From Actinomadura sp. CNU-125 (GTDB lineage: Bacteria; Actinomycetota; Actinomycetes; Streptosporangiales; Streptosporangiaceae): a DNA stretch of 64,000 nt. The notes under the pieces were generated by a model. It was not told where the DNA came from. It ran no database searches and saw only the letters and a program-made list of their open reading frames with translations. The stretch spans positions 1-64,000 of the forward strand of contig NZ_MKJY01000077.1 in NCBI RefSeq assembly GCF_001942465.1. Reading direction: 5' to 3'. A program made the position numbers and the translations under genes. Below, piece by piece: positions 53,171 through 60,255 of the stretch; the stretch's first letter is position 1; each line of letters begins with the position of its first letter.

Positions 53171-54385
53171 ATGGCCTGGTTCACACGGCGGCGCGGGCCG
53201 GACCGGCACGATCCGGCGAGCATGCTGGAGGGCGCCGAGCGCGCACTGGGGCTGGGGCGGGCGGACGCGGCGCTCGGGCTTCTGGAGACGGCCGAGGAGG
53301 CCTGCCGGGCGGCGCCCGCCGCGCGGCTGGGGCTGCTCCTGGACGTCCTGCGCTGCAAGGGCGAGGCCCAGGCGGCGGCGGGCCGCGGCGCGTCGGCCGT
53401 CCTCACCCTCGACGAGGCGCTGACGGGCTACGACGCCGCGGCGGCGACCGGGCCGCTCTCGCCGCTCTTCCTGGACTACGGGCGGGCGCTCGTCGTGAAC
53501 GCGGACGTCCTGCGCCGGTTCGGCGATCCGGACCTGGCGGTCGCCTCGGCGGACGGCGCCGTCCGGCAGTACTTGAACAAGTCATCCGAAATCAATTCAT
53601 CGGTGAACGGATCGACGCACATCGACCGTTTCCGCCGCGCCACCGCGATCGCCTCGGAGCTGCACGCGGCGGGCGGGCGGCTGCATCTGGCCCTCCAGGT
53701 GGACGACATGGCGGTGCAGGCCGCGGGACCGGCCGGGCCCGCGCGGGGCCCGGCGACGGCGCGCAGGGCCGTGCACCTGCGGGCGGACGGGCGGGCGCGG
53801 GAAGCCGACGAGCTGATCCGCGAGCTGCGGCGGTCCTGGCCGGAGGCGCTCGCGGAAGCGGAGGCGACGTTCGCGGCGCCGCCGCGGATCACGCTGCGGC
53901 AGGCGATCGAGAAGGCGCGCGCGGGGCTCGGGAAGGGGGCGCTGACGTACTCGCTGGAGGCGGTGCTCACCGACCCCGGCGACAAGACGGCCGCGGGCTG
54001 GATGACGTCCGTGCGCGCCCCGGCGAAGGCGCTGCCGCCCGCCGCCCCCTCCTCGCCCGCGCGGCGGCGGCCCTGGCCGCCGATCGCGGGGACGTGCCGG
54101 AGGACGTCGCGCCCGTCCTCGCGCTGGAGGCGCACTACATGTTCGCCGCGGCCTCGGCCGAGCAGGTGCAGGAGATGCGGCACGGCCTCGGCGGTTCGGC
54201 CCGGACTGGGCCCGCGCGCTGCTGTGGCTGGCGCGCGACGTCCACGGCGGGACGGACGCGGCCCTCGCCGCCGATCTGGCGGACTGGCTGCGCGGGGTGG
54301 TGCTGCGGCTCCGCCCCGTCGCCTCGTCGACCCCGGCGTCGCGGCGGTCATCGAGGAGTGCCACCCGTTCGCCTCGGGCGGCTGA
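53171..54385 (+). CDS. Uncharacterised TPR-like helical protein (three frameshifts)
   Basis: About 404 residues, Ala/Arg-rich, helix-repeat-like: MLEGAERALGLGRADAALGL, LDVLRCKGEAQAAAGRGASA, FLDYGRALVVNADVLRRFGD. Frames change near 54040, 54195 and 54325; correct pieces include LAADRGDVPEDVAPVLALEA, DWARALLWLARDVHGGTDAA and VDPGVAAVIEECHPFASGG. I do not recognise a family beyond TPR-like character. A notably AT-richer island (53565-53630, NKSSEINSSVNGSTHID) breaks the GC-rich background. Start ATG 53171. Confidence 0.65.
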   Translation: MAWFTRRRGPDRHDPASMLEGAERALGLGRADAALGLLETAEEACRAAPAARLGLLLDVLRCKGEAQAAAGRGASAVLTLDEALTGYDAAAATGPLSPLFLDYGRALVVNADVLRRFGDPDLAVASADGAVRQYLNKSSEINSSVNGSTHIDRFRRATAIASELHAAGGRLHLALQVDDMAVQAAGPAGPARGPATARRAVHLRADGRAREADELIRELRRSWPEALAEAEATFAAPPRITLRQAIEKARAGLGKGALTYSLEAVLTDPGDKTAAGWMTSVRAPAKALPPAAPSSPARRRPWPPIAGTCRRTSRPSSRWRRTTCSPRPRPSRCRRCGTASAVRPGLGPRAAVAGARRPRRDGRGPRRRSGGLAARGGAAAPPRRLVDPGVAAVIEECHPFASGG

Positions 54386-54474
54386 GCCGACCCGCGCACG
54401 GCATCGGACGGCTCGGACGGCTCGCCCGCCGCGGTGCGGCGTGTCCGCCCGGGGGCGGACACGCCACGGCGGGG

Positions 54475-55789
54475 TCACCCCTGGAAAGGGAAACGGTCCG
54501 CGAAGGCGGGCTTGAGGTCGTCCAGCCAGACCGCCTCGGGGTCGTACTTGGCGAAGAACGGCTTGCGACGAGCGAGGAGTCGCGCGCCTGGATGAAGTGC
54601 AGCGCGAACACCTTCTCCCCGAACATGTCGAGGACGCCGTCCACGCAGACCTTGCCGGGCGTGGCGGACATCGACGGCCCCCGGACGGTGCGGGCGAGCC
54701 CGGAGACGTTGCTGTAGGCGTCCCGGAAGATCTCGTACGCGTCGGCCAGGGGAACCGCGAAGTAGTCCTGGGGGCCGTGTCGCGCTCCACGAACATGTAG
54801 TACGGGACGAGCCCCATGCGCGTCTGCACGCGCCACATCGTCTCCCAGGTCCGCGCGTCGTCGTTGATCGTGCGGATCAGCGGGGCCTGCGTGCGGATGA
54901 CCGCGCCGGTGTCGCGGATGCGGCGGCACGCCTCGGTGACCATGAGCGGTTCGAGCTCGCGCGGGTGCGTGAAGTGCGCCATGAACGCGAGGTTCTTGCC
55001 CGACTCCACGACCTGCTCGAACAGGCGGAGCATGTCGTCGGCGTCCGGGTCGGTGACGAACTTCTGCGGCCAGTACGCGAGCGACTTGGTGCCGATGCGG
55101 ATCGACTCCAGCTGCTCCAGGTCCAGCAGCGGCTCGACGTAGCGGCGCAGGACCGGCTCGCCCATGATCATCGCGTCGCCGCCGGTGAACAGGACGCTGG
55201 TGACCTCGGGGTGCGCGATCAGGTACTCGCGCAGCGCGGCGGGCTCGTCACCGGCCATCTTCAGGTCGGCTTCGCCGACGAACTGCGCCCAGCGGAAGCA
55301 GTACGTGCAGTACGCGTGACACGTCTGTCCCTGCTTGGGGAAGTACAGGACGGTCTCGTCGTACTTGTGCTGCATCCCGGGGATCTTGCCGTCGCCGAAG
55401 CTCGGGATGTTGAGCTCCATCTGCCCGGCCGGATGCGGGTTCAGCTTCATCCGCACCGCGTGCGCGGCGGCCTCCACCTCCGCCTTGGGCGCCTCCCGGG
55501 CGAGCAGGTCCGACAGGTGCGCGACGTCCCCGGCCGGGAGCATGTCCTCCTGCGGGAAGACGAGCCGGTAGATGGGGTCGTCGGGCGCCGCCGTCCAGTC
55601 GATCAGCTCGTCGATGACGTAGGCGTTCGTCCGGAACGGCAGGACGGTCGCGACGGCCCGGGTGGCGAGCCGCTGTGCCGGCGAAAGCCCGGCACGAGCG
55701 GTCAGCTCGTCGAGGTGCTTCGCCGTGAAGGCGCGGAACTTGCGACCGGTGGATCGCATGGCGGGGGCCGCGTCGTTCACCAGTGTCAC
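54475..55789 (-). CDS. Lysine 2,3-aminomutase-family (KamA/YodO-like) radical SAM protein (two frameshifts)
   Basis: About 439 residues. The radical SAM cluster is in GQTCHAYCTYCFRWAQFVG (CxxxCxxC). Also SVLFTGGDAMIMGEPVLRRY, ESIRIGTKSLAYWPQKFVTD, FMAHFTHPRELEPLMVTEAC and VIRTQAPLIRTINDDARTWE. Frame shifts near 54775 and 54573; the final frame ends RKPFFAKYDPEAVWLDDLKP then ADRFPFQG. GTG 55789 is preferred because AGGAG lies nine bases upstream; GTG 55819 has none. Family members interconvert alpha- and beta-lysine or modify EF-P; no EF-P or ablB gene is adjacent, so the substrate is open. Confidence 0.87.
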
Positions 55790-56175
55790 GTGTTGGTACT
55801 CCTTGCTGTCGGCGGGCACGACGCGCCGGATGGACGCGTCGTCACGGACTGTGAGCAGAGGACCGGCAAGTCACCCCCATTGAACAGTCCTTGGGCGGTT
55901 CCTGCCGAATTGATACCCCATACACGGTACGGGGCAAGCCCGGTCAGTCAGGATCCCGACAAATCACCCGGACATGATCGTGGACGCGGGACTCCTTGTA
56001 AACGACTACGCGACGTCAGCGCGCACCGGATCGGCGGACGGTGCGGGCCCGCCGCGGGACCGCCGCGGGACCGCCGCAGGGCCGCCGCGGAACCGTCCGG
56101 AAACGCGGCGCAGGTCACACCATCGACGATGTTCGGAAATACTGGCGTGACCCGTGCGGTGCTAGGGGGTGTGCG
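55790..56175. other. 386-bp divergent intergenic region (KamA / DUF998)
   Basis: No gene. Between 56047 and 56096 there are about four imperfect tandem copies of a 12-bp unit close to CCGCCGCGGGAC. The left half (55870-55980) is more AT-rich and probably holds the kamA-like promoter; I cannot pick hexamers with confidence. Confidence 0.45.
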
Positions 56176-56979: not shown

Positions 56980-57860
56980 GCGAGGTCGCGGGCGAGGTCG
57001 TGAACGTGGGGCGCGAGCAGGTCCACGTGGTCCGCTCCGGGCCGCTGGACGGGCCGCCGGTGCTGCTCGACTCCGGGCTCGGCGGCGCGTGGTTCGACTG
57101 GGAGCCGCTGACGGCCCTGCTCCGGGACGCCTGCCGGGTGACGGTGTTCGACCGTCCCGGCCTCGGGGCGAGCCCGGCCGGGGCCGCGCCGCCGTCGCTG
57201 CGCCGGGACGTCGCGCTGGCCGCCGCCCTCGCCGAACGCCCGGCGGGGCGGCCCGCACGGCCGGTCACGGTGGTCGCGCACTCGATGGCGGCGTTCCACG
57301 CGGAGGCGCTGGCGCGCGTCCGTCCCGAACTGGTCCGGGCGCTCGTCCTGGTCGACCCGAGTCACGAACACGACGCGCGCGCGAGGGTGCGGCTCTCGTC
57401 CGTCCTGTCCCCGGCCTGCACGGCGGTCGGCGCGCTGCTGGAGGCGACCGGCGCGGCCGGTGTCGTGGGGCCGTGGGGACGCCGCGCGGTGCTGCGGCAC
57501 ACGAGCCGCGCGGGCGACCCGGCCACGGACGCGGCCGTCCGTGCGGTGTACGGGCGCGGGACGGTCCTGGGCACCACCTTCGCGGAGAACTTCGCCTACC
57601 GGGAGATGGCCGCGGACCTCGTCGCTCTGCGCGCGCGCCGCCCGTTCCCGCCCGTCCCCCTGGTGGTGTTGACGGCCCTGGACGACGTCCGGCGCGAAGC
57701 GTGCAGGCGCGCGTGGGCGGACGGGCACGCTCGTCTGGCGGCGATGTCCCCGCACGGTCGGCAGGTAAAGCTTCCGGAGGCGCGCCACATGATCCACCTG
57801 GACCGTCCGGACGCGATCGCCGACGCGGTCGCCGAAGCGCATCGGAAGATCCCGGCGTGA
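56976..57860 (+). CDS. Alpha/beta-hydrolase
   Basis: 294 residues. Oxyanion region VLLDSGLGGAWFDWEPL, RVTVFDRPGLGASPAG, nucleophile Ser in TVVAHSMAAFHAEALARV, acid candidate in VVLTALDDVRREACRR and catalytic His in LPEARHMIHLDRPDAIAD. Substrate unknown. Coupled to DUF998 upstream and a lipoprotein downstream by GTGA overlaps, so all three form one operon. Confidence 0.87.
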   Translation: MSEVAGEVVNVGREQVHVVRSGPLDGPPVLLDSGLGGAWFDWEPLTALLRDACRVTVFDRPGLGASPAGAAPPSLRRDVALAAALAERPAGRPARPVTVVAHSMAAFHAEALARVRPELVRALVLVDPSHEHDARARVRLSSVLSPACTAVGALLEATGAAGVVGPWGRRAVLRHTSRAGDPATDAAVRAVYGRGTVLGTTFAENFAYREMAADLVALRARRPFPPVPLVVLTALDDVRREACRRAWADGHARLAAMSPHGRQVKLPEARHMIHLDRPDAIADAVAEAHRKIPA

Positions 57861-58216
57861 GGCGGGCCGGGCGCCTGCTCGCGGCGGTGCTCCTGATCGC
57901 CGCCCTGTCGGGCTGCGACGCGATGCAGCGGATCTCCGAAGGCGCGTACCGCAACGCCGTCAGCGACGGGACGACCGACGAGCTGCGGGCACGCGGCGTC
58001 GAACTCGAACACCGTCCCGACTGCGCCTTGGCGGAGACGGGGTCGGACGCGCTCGTCCGGGTGCACTGCAAGGCCCGCACCCGGACGGGCGAACCCGTCA
58101 CCGTGCGGGGCGTCGCGCACGACGCCGACACGCCGCGTCCGCGCGAGCAGTACGTCGTGACCGTCGGCGAACGTGAGATCTTCCGCACGGATTGTCTCGG
58201 CCCCGACTGCGATTAG
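57857..58216 (+). CDS. DUF4333-like lipoprotein
   Basis: 119 residues with signal peptide and a good lipobox, LLIAALSGC (Cys-20). The mature part contains ELRARGVELEHRPDC and REQYVVTVGEREIFRTDC, with paired Cys, resembling the DUF4333/PknH-sensor-like type. It shares layout with the next gene. Start GTG 57857 overlaps the hydrolase stop. Confidence 0.75.
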   Translation: MRRAGRLLAAVLLIAALSGCDAMQRISEGAYRNAVSDGTTDELRARGVELEHRPDCALAETGSDALVRVHCKARTRTGEPVTVRGVAHDADTPRPREQYVVTVGEREIFRTDCLGPDCD

Positions 58217-58305
58217 CCGCGGCCCAAAGATCCGCATACGGCGAGGAAAAACCGGCCACTCACCGCATACGTCACCACACACAGGGCGATATCGGGTTCG
58301 TGGAG

Positions 58306-58706
58306 ATGACTCGGAAGAAAGCCGCGATCCTCGGGTCGGCCGTGGCCGCGCCCTGGTCCTGGGCGGGGTCGCCGCCGCCGCGATCGTGCTGCTGACCGGC
58401 GGCAAGGAACTGCCCTACAAGACGCAGTCGGAGATGCGCGGAGCGATGCCGTCGATGGCGGCGGCCGAGCTGAAGGCACGCGGCGTGACCCTGGCGGGCC
58501 CGCTCGACTGCGAAGGCGTGCCGGGCTGGACGAACCAGCGGTTGCGCGTGTCCTGCACCGGGACCACGACGGACAAGAAGCCGGTCGAAGTCCTCGGCAG
58601 CGGGCAGATGCAGACGCAGGACGCCTACTACACGATCCTCGTGGACGGGCAGCCGCTCGTGGAGAACCTCGCGTGCATGGGCGACGGCTGCCAGAAGGAC
58701 GAGTGA
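58306..58706 (+). CDS. Secreted or membrane-anchored DUF4333-like protein (one frameshift)
   Basis: About 133 residues. N-terminal membrane anchor TRKKAAILGSAVAA continuing, after a shift near 58350, as LVLGGVAAAAIVLLTGGKEL. Mature part: ELKARGVTLAGPLDCEGVPG, LRVSCTGTTTDKKPVEVLG, YYTILVDGQPLVENLACMGD then GC. The spacing of the four Cys and the ARGV...DC/V.C/V.G/DC pattern parallel the preceding lipoprotein, so they are probable paralogues. Start ATG 58306 is tentative; GTG 58300 is also possible. Confidence 0.7.
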
Positions 58707-58732
58707 CCCGGACCCGGACGCGACCGTCCTCA

Positions 58733-58796
58733 CGTTGATCTGCGGCGTGTTGCCCTTATGGACGCCCGAGTTAGGGCAACACGCCGCAGATCAACG
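58733..58796. repeat. Perfect 24-bp inverted repeat with 16-nt spacer
   Basis: Arms 58733-58756 and 58773-58796 are exactly complementary; the spacer is 58757-58772. Each arm begins CGTTGATCTGCGGCGTG when read inward. It lies 27 bp after the DUF4333-like gene and 160 bp before plsX. No T tract follows. Too long and perfect for a routine actinomycete terminator; may be a terminator, a dispersed palindromic element or a non-autonomous mobile remnant. Confidence 0.9.
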
Positions 58797-58871
58797 AAAC
58801 CCGGGGGGGATTTGGGGTGGCCGGAAACCTCGCAGTGAAGATCGCCACTCCGGGCGGTGGTCGTCAAGACG

Positions 58872-58946
58872 GGTGAAAGAACGTCCTACCATGCGATGAG
58901 CTGCATCATCGCAGAGCACCGCATTCCGCGCCGGTGTTCTTTCACC
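58872..58946. promoter_or_regulatory. Nested inverted repeats upstream of plsX
   Basis: Outer arms GGTGAAAGAAC (58872-58882) and GTTCTTTCACC (58936-58946) are perfect 11-bp complements. Between them is a second dyad, TGCGATGA-GCTGCA-TCATCGCA (58892-58913), with 8-bp perfect arms. The outer right arm ends 13 bp before ATG 58960, so the structure would include or mask the plsX ribosome site. Operator pair or mRNA structure. Confidence 0.75.
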
Positions 58947-58959
58947 GTCTGGAGCCGCC

Positions 58960-60255
58960 ATGTCCGGCAGCACGTCGGCGAGGGGCGAGCCGTCGCGTCC
59001 GTCGCGCCACGGGACGGCGCCGGCCCGCCGCGCGGGGACGGCCCGGCGGGTCCGCCCGCTGCCGATCGCCGTCGACACGATGGGCGGCGACCACGCCCCC
59101 GCGGAGATCATCGCGGGCGCGGTGGAGGCGGTGCGCGAGCACGACGTCCGGCTCGTCCTGGTCGGCCAGGCGCCCCGGATCCGCCGCGAGCTGGACCGGT
59201 ACGGGATCACCGGCCAGATCCCGATCGTGCACGCCGACGAGGCCCTCGACATGGGCGAGGGCGCGCTGGCGAGCTGGCGCAAGCCCCGCTCGTCCATCGC
59301 GATCGCCTGCCACCTGATCAAGCAGGGCCGGGCGTCGGCGCTGGTGTCGGCGGGCGGCACCGCCGGGGTGGTGGCGACGTCCCGGCTGCGGCTGAAGGGG
59401 CAGCAGGGCGTGATGCGGCCCGCGATCGCGGTGACGCTGCCGTCCCGGCCCGGACCCACGATCCTGCTGGACGCCGGCGCGACCGCCGACGTGAAAGCCG
59501 AGGGCCTCGTGCAGTACGCGGCGCTCGGCACCGCCTACGCGCAGGTGTTGCTCGGCACCGAACGTCCCCGGGTCGGGCTCCTGACCATCGGGGAGGAGCC
59601 GGGGAAAGGCAACAAGCTCGCCAAGCGCGCGCACGAACTGCTCGCGAGCGGCAACCACGGCATCGAGTTCGCGGGGAACGTGGAGGGGCACGACCTGCTG
59701 CGCGGCAGCGTCGACGTGATCGTCACCGACGGGTTCACCGGGAACGTGGCGCTGAAGACGATGGAGGGCACGATCCGGACGGCGTTCGCGGAGATCCGCG
59801 ACGCGATGACGTCCACCGCGACCGCCCGGATGGGCGCGCTGCTGCAGCGCCGCCGGATGGCCGGGCTGCGCGACCGGCTCGACCCCGACACCTACGGCGG
59901 CGGCGTCCTGCTCGGCCTGAACGGGACGGTCGTGATCGCGCACGGCGCGGCCCGGGCCCGCGCGATCACGTCGGCGTGCGAGCTGGCGGACCGGCTCGCC
60001 GCGGGACGCATCGTGGAGCGGATCCGCGAGCAGGTGGCGCTGACGCGCACCCACCGGTTCGGGCGCTGGACGCACGGGACGGGCGACGAGAAGAACGCCG
60101 ACCGGCCGAACGAGACGGCGTCCGAAGCGGGCGACCTTCCGGCCGCCTCGGCGAACGGCGGTCCGGGCGGGGGCGTCCTCGACGCGCCGCCACCGCCGCG
60201 TTCCGCCGAGGACGCCGCCCCGGACGACGTCGAGCTGCCCGGCGGCAAACCGTGA
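58960..60255 (+). CDS. plsX: Phosphate acyltransferase PlsX
   Basis: 431 residues. PlsX makes acyl-phosphate from acyl-ACP, the first step to phosphatidic acid with PlsY. Seen: PLPIAVDTMGGDHAPAEIIA, VHADEALDMGEGALASWRKP, ALVSAGGTAGVVATSRLRLK, TILLDAGATADVKAEGLVQY, EEPGKGNKLAKRAHELL, VIVTDGFTGNVALKTMEG and GGGVLLGLNGTVVIAHGAAR. An N-terminal basic extension (about 33 residues) and a long disordered C-terminal tail are extra. Start ATG 58960 follows GGAG. It is not beside rpmF, fabH or acpP, the usual neighbours. Confidence 0.93.
   Translation: MSGSTSARGEPSRPSRHGTAPARRAGTARRVRPLPIAVDTMGGDHAPAEIIAGAVEAVREHDVRLVLVGQAPRIRRELDRYGITGQIPIVHADEALDMGEGALASWRKPRSSIAIACHLIKQGRASALVSAGGTAGVVATSRLRLKGQQGVMRPAIAVTLPSRPGPTILLDAGATADVKAEGLVQYAALGTAYAQVLLGTERPRVGLLTIGEEPGKGNKLAKRAHELLASGNHGIEFAGNVEGHDLLRGSVDVIVTDGFTGNVALKTMEGTIRTAFAEIRDAMTSTATARMGALLQRRRMAGLRDRLDPDTYGGGVLLGLNGTVVIAHGAARARAITSACELADRLAAGRIVERIREQVALTRTHRFGRWTHGTGDEKNADRPNETASEAGDLPAASANGGPGGGVLDAPPPPRSAEDAAPDDVELPGGKP

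Follow-up and report, generated by a model that had tools for sequence, protein, structure and literature searches.

A hairpin in which all 24 of the 24 arm bases are paired across a 16-nt spacing lies between a small open reading frame and plsX in the window, the 64,000-nt stretch of Actinomadura DNA that was analysed. The features of the locus are as follows.

About 58386 to 58706, + strand: upstream ORF of about 106 aa with its stop 26 nt 5' of the hairpin (own codon-bias gene caller)
58703 to 58833: segment without a counterpart in the closest relative, G002, and so the outer limit of the inserted or replaced DNA (BLAST)
58733 to 58756, + strand: left arm of the hairpin, 24 bp (inverted-repeat search)
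58742 to 58787: core GCGGCGTGTTGCC...GGCAACACGCCGC, the pattern used to count the family (genome pattern searches)
58757 to 58772: loop, 16 nt, varying among copies (alignment of copies)
58773 to 58796, + strand: right arm of the hairpin, 24 bp (inverted-repeat search)
58797 to 58823: weak similarity to the right outer arm of the long form described below (shuffle p = 0.034)
58960 to 60255, + strand: plsX (PF02504), the gene downstream of the hairpin (Pfam match)

The original prediction held that exact complementarity over 24 bp was beyond chance here and that no T tract followed, and both statements were borne out. With gaps of up to 60 nt allowed, the longest perfect inverted repeat measured 24 bp in the window, compared with a mean of 11.1 bp and a maximum of 17 bp in 100 order-1 Markov copies, and among the 25 longest of the window's 73 inverted repeats this was the sole pair with 100% complementarity. 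The repeat at 58733-58796 is genuine and exceeds chance expectation. The 64-nt hairpin alone has a folding energy of -50.8 kcal/mol, and the folding of the region 58704-58860 has a z-score of -5.4. A promoter and terminator scan of 57800-59300 gave zero hits, and thus no T tract on either side; the plsX copy has the G+C-rich hairpin of a canonical Rho-independent terminator and lacks its T run. A Pfam search assigned the ORF of about 106 aa to no family, and an Rfam covariance search over the repeat found nothing at the gathering score, the best match being CcsR1 with 19.6 bits against a gathering score of 65.3. Elsewhere in the window, a long ORF on the minus strand (53597-55819) resembles a lysine 2,3-aminomutase at its start, with a radical-SAM cysteine motif; further on it seems to drop that identity, perhaps through a frameshift.

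A dispersed family restricted to the genus

The window comes from a 9.96-Mb draft genome of 603 contigs (G000), in which the arm was found, with up to three mismatches, at 56 sites on one strand and 55 on the other, compared with none for its reversed control, and in which 52 complete hairpins have a common 13-bp core, GCGGCGTGTTGCC...GGCAACACGCCGC. The plsX hairpin thus belongs to a small dispersed element with about fifty near-identical copies. It had been proposed that a search of the genome and its relatives with the arm sequence would tell a dispersed element from a single conserved copy; the many copies found confirm the former, and the 52 hairpins refute the latter. Analyses of G000 used 51 of the 52 exact-core copies, with the omission of L092, which begins at a contig end, and four degraded or cut copies (L099-L102) were inspected and left out of the counts. 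Loops differ among the copies, and the commonest one is found both ways round with respect to the outer flanks. A model in which the arms serve as uptake sequences was considered and rejected, lone arms being rare: 111 arms were found at up to three mismatches, and 104 would be explained by the 52 exact-core hairpins.

Several further observations concern the surroundings of the copies. Copies or half copies lie no more than 400 bases from the ends of at least eight G000 contigs (C36, C105, C164, C179, C222, C240, C323 and C572); the palindrome seems to break the draft assembly, and C164 and C572 may be the two sides of a single copy. Hairpin pairs about 1,020-1,057 bp apart were seen in three genomes (G020:C12:335507/336564; G027:C13:317651/318707; G000 L088 at about 1502/2521), and the near-equal spacing in G020 and G027 may represent one conserved arrangement. 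A second dispersed repeat, CCATCACCCCAGCCAGAGCGGACC..., adjoins two G000 copies (flanks of L078 and L096) and also occupies the L070 junction interval in G052 (L310:13195-14045).

The range of the element was established with 65 genomes taken to be Actinomadura and 15 genomes of other genera. The exact core is present in 16 of the 65, and a draw of 250 genomes from the family gave exact-core matches in 8, all of this genus, while a draw of 396 from the phylum matched in one, G000 itself. A relaxed core was found in 28 of the 65 genus genomes and in 0 of the 15 others (its reversed control gave one match, in one other-genus genome), with the highest counts in G033 (138), G004 (103), G060 (81), G047 (80), G000 (52) and G045 (52). 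A covariance model built from 52 copies matches 47 of the 65, with both-strand counts reaching at least 79, and Actinomadura latina NBRC 106108 holds a copy whose contig number and position agree with G020:C12:335507, which is why the genus is taken to be Actinomadura; if this strain is G020, it has 12 copies by the relaxed core. The element is a genus-restricted family. A 20-mer met with in six records of other organisms (L032-L037) had no second arm within 120 bases in any of them and was taken as chance. As regards carriage by plasmids or phages, a 68-base query found no match and one exact 21-mer was absent from viral contigs.

The 52 aligned copies had been collected by the exact 13-bp core, which is accordingly invariant by construction. 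In their stem, 64 cells were changed on both sides, as against 18.7 +- 3.5 in shuffles, and covariation was 0.152 compared with 0.066 when shuffled; the number of pairs with double changes, 8, was not unusual (shuffles 6.3, with 55 of 500 equally high). Searching other species without the exact-core condition revealed distinct paired cores, among them TGTCGTCC/GGACGACA, TGTTGTTG/CAACAACA and AGTCGTCG/CGACGACT. The core versions are species-specific and are altered on both arms together. Most exact-core copies of G047 have one identical palindromic loop, the pattern that a recent burst would give.

Empty junctions and a proposed CTAG target

The closest relatives by PlsX are G002, G037 and G052, at about 90% identity. 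The relaxed pattern occurs in neither G037 nor G052 and once, elsewhere, in G002, and the covariance model finds four matches on both strands in G002 and none in the other two. The two sides of the plsX junction are 90% and 94% identical to G002, but the match breaks off at 58702 and is taken up again at 58834, G002 having 75 unrelated bases in the gap. The hairpin is missing from the relatives' intervals at 19 of 19 comparable junctions, plsX included, at most of which the intergenic interval is simply unlike, a clean insertion point being readable at few. These junctions comprise that of plsX, 11 drawn from 13 flank pairs on the rule that both flanks be adjacent in at least one relative, and 7 from stretches chosen by synteny; there was no adjacent flank pair at L050, L065, L078, L085 or L096, and a possible second flank of L066 was left out.

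It might be supposed that the upstream gene simply has an ordinary terminator here, a single one passed on by vertical descent, as a strong hairpin 26 nt behind a stop codon would suggest, but this has to contend with 52 copies of one core and with relatives that have no hairpin at the plsX junction. Moreover, 18 pairs of copies from different genomes have at least one similar neighbour, and just 2 of these, both G008-G047 pairs, have both neighbours in common, which indicates that positions are mostly species-specific. As a full account this explanation is refuted, and we give it virtually no credence, though the element may still act as a terminator.

The element also has a long form, which with both CTAGs included measures 121 bp in one copy and 145 bp in another; it terminates in CTAG[T/C]GC(G/A)G and contains a near-perfect central hairpin with arms of at least 24 bp. 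The 145-bp element, L049, has CTAG[T/C]GCGG at both ends; most copies retain at most one long-form end. Inspected by eye, L072 in G000 reads CGGGC-CTAG-TGCAGCG..hairpin..GGCGCGG-CTAG-ACGATCG, and the same site in G002, G037 and G052 has a single CTAG, which in G002 and G052 forms the overlapping TAG stops of two convergent genes; in G000 both CTAGs act as stops, so both stops survive. L049 also has CTAG on both sides in G000, and by eye the same place in G002 is TTAA, not CTAG. At L059 the left end starts at a CTAG stop that is also present in G002 and G052. CTAG on both sides together with a matching relative was seen in just 2 of the 51 G000 copies, L072 and L049. Insertion of the element is supported by the 19 of 19 empty junctions and by the CTAG on both sides of these two copies. 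The mechanism we propose is that the element inserts at CTAG and leaves a CTAG at both ends; the target would often be a single gene's TAG stop or, in a convergent pair, the place where two TAG stops overlap, and the stops would consequently survive.

Long-form ends of the type CTAG[T/C]GCGG, or close variants, occur in G000, G047 and G054, and by eye L328 and L331 of G004 have the same outer arms around a different core. The end motif exceeded its control in G000, where 14 of 51 copies have it (the control averages 4.4 and peaks at 8), and in G047 (6 of 23; 1.6 and 3); it did not clearly do so in G054 (2 of 16; 0.9 and 2) and did not in G008 (2 of 30; 2.2 and 6). In a pooled test without G033, where CTAG forms 0 of 12 facing stops, the stop is formed by CTAG in 39 of the 143 genes that face a copy as against 13 of 147 other genes (p = 5e-5); the excess is significant in G000 alone (p = 3e-4) and not in G008, G047 or G054 taken singly. 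CTAG also lies near 28 of 51 G000 copies as against 11 of 612 windows further out, but the stop-matched test is the fair one because those windows are mostly coding. In G033, GACCGGGTGGTC stands on at least one side of 13 of 13 copies and on both sides of 11, CTAG is nearby in 0 of 13, and the outer ends differ from those of the long form. The G033 hairpins L175-L187 lie within a longer palindrome with outer arms TGACCACCCGGTC, and in some of these copies the TGA of the arm resembles the stop of the neighbouring gene.

In most G000 copies the outer ends are lost and the core is retained, a pattern to be read with the caveat that counting by the core favours intact cores. No CTAG lies within 70 nt of the plsX copy, and whilst its right flank is weakly like the long-form outer arm (p = 0.034), its left is unrecognisable (shuffle p = 0.789). 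It is presumably a trimmed copy behind the small upstream ORF, any CTAG ends having been lost.

Position at gene ends and a putative terminator role

An important consideration is where the copies lie relative to genes. Gene context was taken from our own codon-bias caller, by which some genes are missed. In five genomes 57 of the 117 classified copies are between convergent genes, 59 between codirectional genes and 1 between divergent genes, compared with 21, 84 and 28 among the background junctions of the same stretches (convergent versus divergent, p = 1.9e-11). Copies without a called gene on one side were omitted (16 of 133 in the five genomes and 2 of 20 in G004). Those used were 16 of 18 exact-core copies in G054, 23 of 80 copies in G047, 30 of 34 in G008, 20 of 103 in G004 and, in G033, the 13 exact-core copies of the 138 found by the relaxed pattern. 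In G004, whose subfamily has a different core, 18 of the 20 copies were classified, 10 as convergent, 6 as codirectional and 2 as divergent, against a background of 2, 8 and 6. For codirectional copies the median distance is 12 nt from the stop upstream and 119 nt from the start that follows, and 46 of 53 (G033 left out) are nearer the stop than the start. The suggestion that the hairpin is an insulator ahead of plsX received no specific support, as the copies keep to the 3' end of whichever gene lies upstream.

A terminator role is likely, to judge from position, symmetry, hairpin strength (-50.8 kcal/mol) and replaced hairpins. The hairpin would serve neighbouring genes as a strong terminator, or as a block at the 3' end, without a U tract, and at convergent junctions it would block in both directions. 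As to the replaced hairpins, three junctions (L060, L063 and L068) hold the element in G000, whereas every relative in which both flanks are present (2, 2 and 3 respectively) has there, between the same two stops, a common and unrelated perfect hairpin of 11-18 bp. An unrelated stem of 10-14 bp occurs in G037 alone at L069, L083 and L093, and a different strong hairpin was seen by eye in G052 at L070. At each of L052, L072, L075, L089 and L093, the stops of one or more relatives overlap or together cover no more than 18 nt. Such a role would preserve the core as the outer ends decayed and older terminators disappeared. Against this has to be set the point that target choice alone could put copies at gene ends, and a wobble test for selection on the sense RNA found no bias (20 G-U against 18 A-C arm mismatches, p = 0.87).

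Positive supercoils gather at convergent junctions, and this, together with the symmetry and strong conservation of the palindrome and the neutral wobble test, would suit a site that acts as DNA, recognised by a chromosome- or supercoil-binding protein and multiplied through some copying process. Such a site is improbable, however, since the copy number ranges from none to more than 100 among species of one genus, which is unusual for a housekeeping site, and the close relatives G037 and G052 have zero copies.

A more serious alternative is that the element is a purely selfish MITE of no benefit to its host, in which case the placement at gene ends would reflect a CTAG or stop-codon target combined with the loss of harmful insertions. 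The CTAG target and the lack of sense-strand wobble bias both agree with this, and in the accessible part of the source pneumococcal repeats and IS elements are likewise over-represented between convergent genes, which its authors read as tolerance (PMC3049150). The three junctions at which a hairpin common to all the relatives compared has been replaced by the element count against it, as does the retention of the G000 core with mostly lost outer ends, albeit that core-based counting favours intact cores. We regard pure selfishness as rather unlikely, though to be taken seriously. The fuller proposal, which is put forward tentatively as a possibility, is of a transposable bidirectional terminator that targets the palindromic CTAG of overlapping convergent TAG stops, regenerates both stops, gives both genes a symmetric terminator and in the long run takes the place of native terminators; each Actinomadura species would in this way be refitting some of its convergent junctions with a version of its own.

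The mobiliser and comparison with known systems

With moderate confidence, the element may be described as a non-autonomous, MITE-like mobile hairpin inserting at CTAG and a probable bidirectional terminator without a U tract. It is short, non-coding and multicopy (long copies of 121 and 145 bp; 52 exact-core copies), the long form has terminal inverted repeats, as in L049, and target-site duplication is seen in empty and filled pairs at L072 (three relatives) and L049 and was not seen at the plsX copy. The original prediction that the hairpin had been mobilised by a helper transposase holds in part: insertion is upheld by the 19 of 19 empty junctions and the CTAG on both sides of two copies, while the right-end search of G000 brought no helper to light and the distribution of Y1 transposases does not follow copy number.

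One candidate helper is the REP-associated tyrosine (Y1/RAYT) transposase. A dispersed palindrome with species versions is REP-like, Y1 matches occur in some copy-rich genomes (2 in G000, 1 in G004, 3 in G022 and 1 each in G033, G045 and G054), and REPs too prefer convergent and unidirectional junctions according to the part of the source available (PMC3733652). However, Y1_Tnp is absent from nine genomes with 41 to at least 79 model matches (G008, G020, G030, G031, G035, G047, G056, G060 and G062), G018, G037, G052 and G061 have Y1 matches and zero model matches, and an unpaired GTAG tag was not seen by eye among the copies printed. The Y1 mobiliser was rejected, PF01797 and copy number being unlinked over the 65 genomes, and that the element is a REP moved in this way is extremely improbable. 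The putative mobiliser is a DDE-type transposase with an IS630- or IS5-like target habit, acting in trans. IS630 reportedly prefers the TA in CTAG, going by the title of a 1991 paper cited in PMC2170065; the likeness to IS630 is limited to the CTAG target. CTAG is also reminiscent of IS5-type elements. The ends relevant to a search for a parent transposon are CTAG[T/C]GCGG or GACCACCCGGTC; in G000, the long-form right end was found at 10 places, 7 beside hairpins and 3 others, with 7 for the control. A likeness to integron attC sites is doubtful, as the box consensus does not fit.

A literature search, made mostly without subscription papers, found no title or abstract opening on an Actinomadura element of this kind. 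REP elements, as portrayed in the accessible part of one account (PMC3733652), are similarly short, dispersed palindromes at convergent and unidirectional junctions, tagged with GTAG or CGTC and associated with RAYT, and CGTC REPs are also said there to lack a dedicated transposase; the Actinomadura element is longer, no unpaired GTAG/CGTC tag was seen in it by eye and Y1 does not track its copy number. With bacterial MITEs such as the pneumococcal RUP it has in common a length below 200 bp, the absence of coding capacity, terminal inverted repeats in the long form and target duplication, but going by the available portions of the sources (PMC3049150, PMC10969869) it differs in being GC-rich, in a central hairpin far better kept than the ends and in that a search of G000 with the right end found no parent IS.

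The element bears on how high-GC actinomycetes end transcription without U tracts. In Streptomyces, intrinsic terminators are long, very stable, U-poor hairpins behind coding sequences, which the accessible part of the report describes individually (PMC12207403), whereas the Actinomadura hairpin is one sequence family at many junctions. It also calls for caution, as a strong hairpin found just downstream of an actinomycete gene may turn out to be a repeat. The occupied and empty junctions of close relatives offer a natural case in which to ask whether transposition can disseminate terminators that then take over from native ones.

The closest idea is SPRITE of the pneumococcus, which the accessible part of its description presents as a dispersed, terminator-like hairpin repeat near the 3' ends of genes, over-represented between convergent genes, and for which a target duplication could not be established (PMC3049150). 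By the same account SPRITE is AT-rich with a U-rich tract and an 18-bp duplex, whereas the Actinomadura element is GC-rich with 24-bp arms, no U tract and CTAG on both sides in two copies; the AAAA/TTTT ends of SPRITE are also unlike its ends, the two being set apart by their descriptions. Dispersed terminator-like repeats are already known, and what would be new here is such a repeat with a stop-preserving CTAG target.
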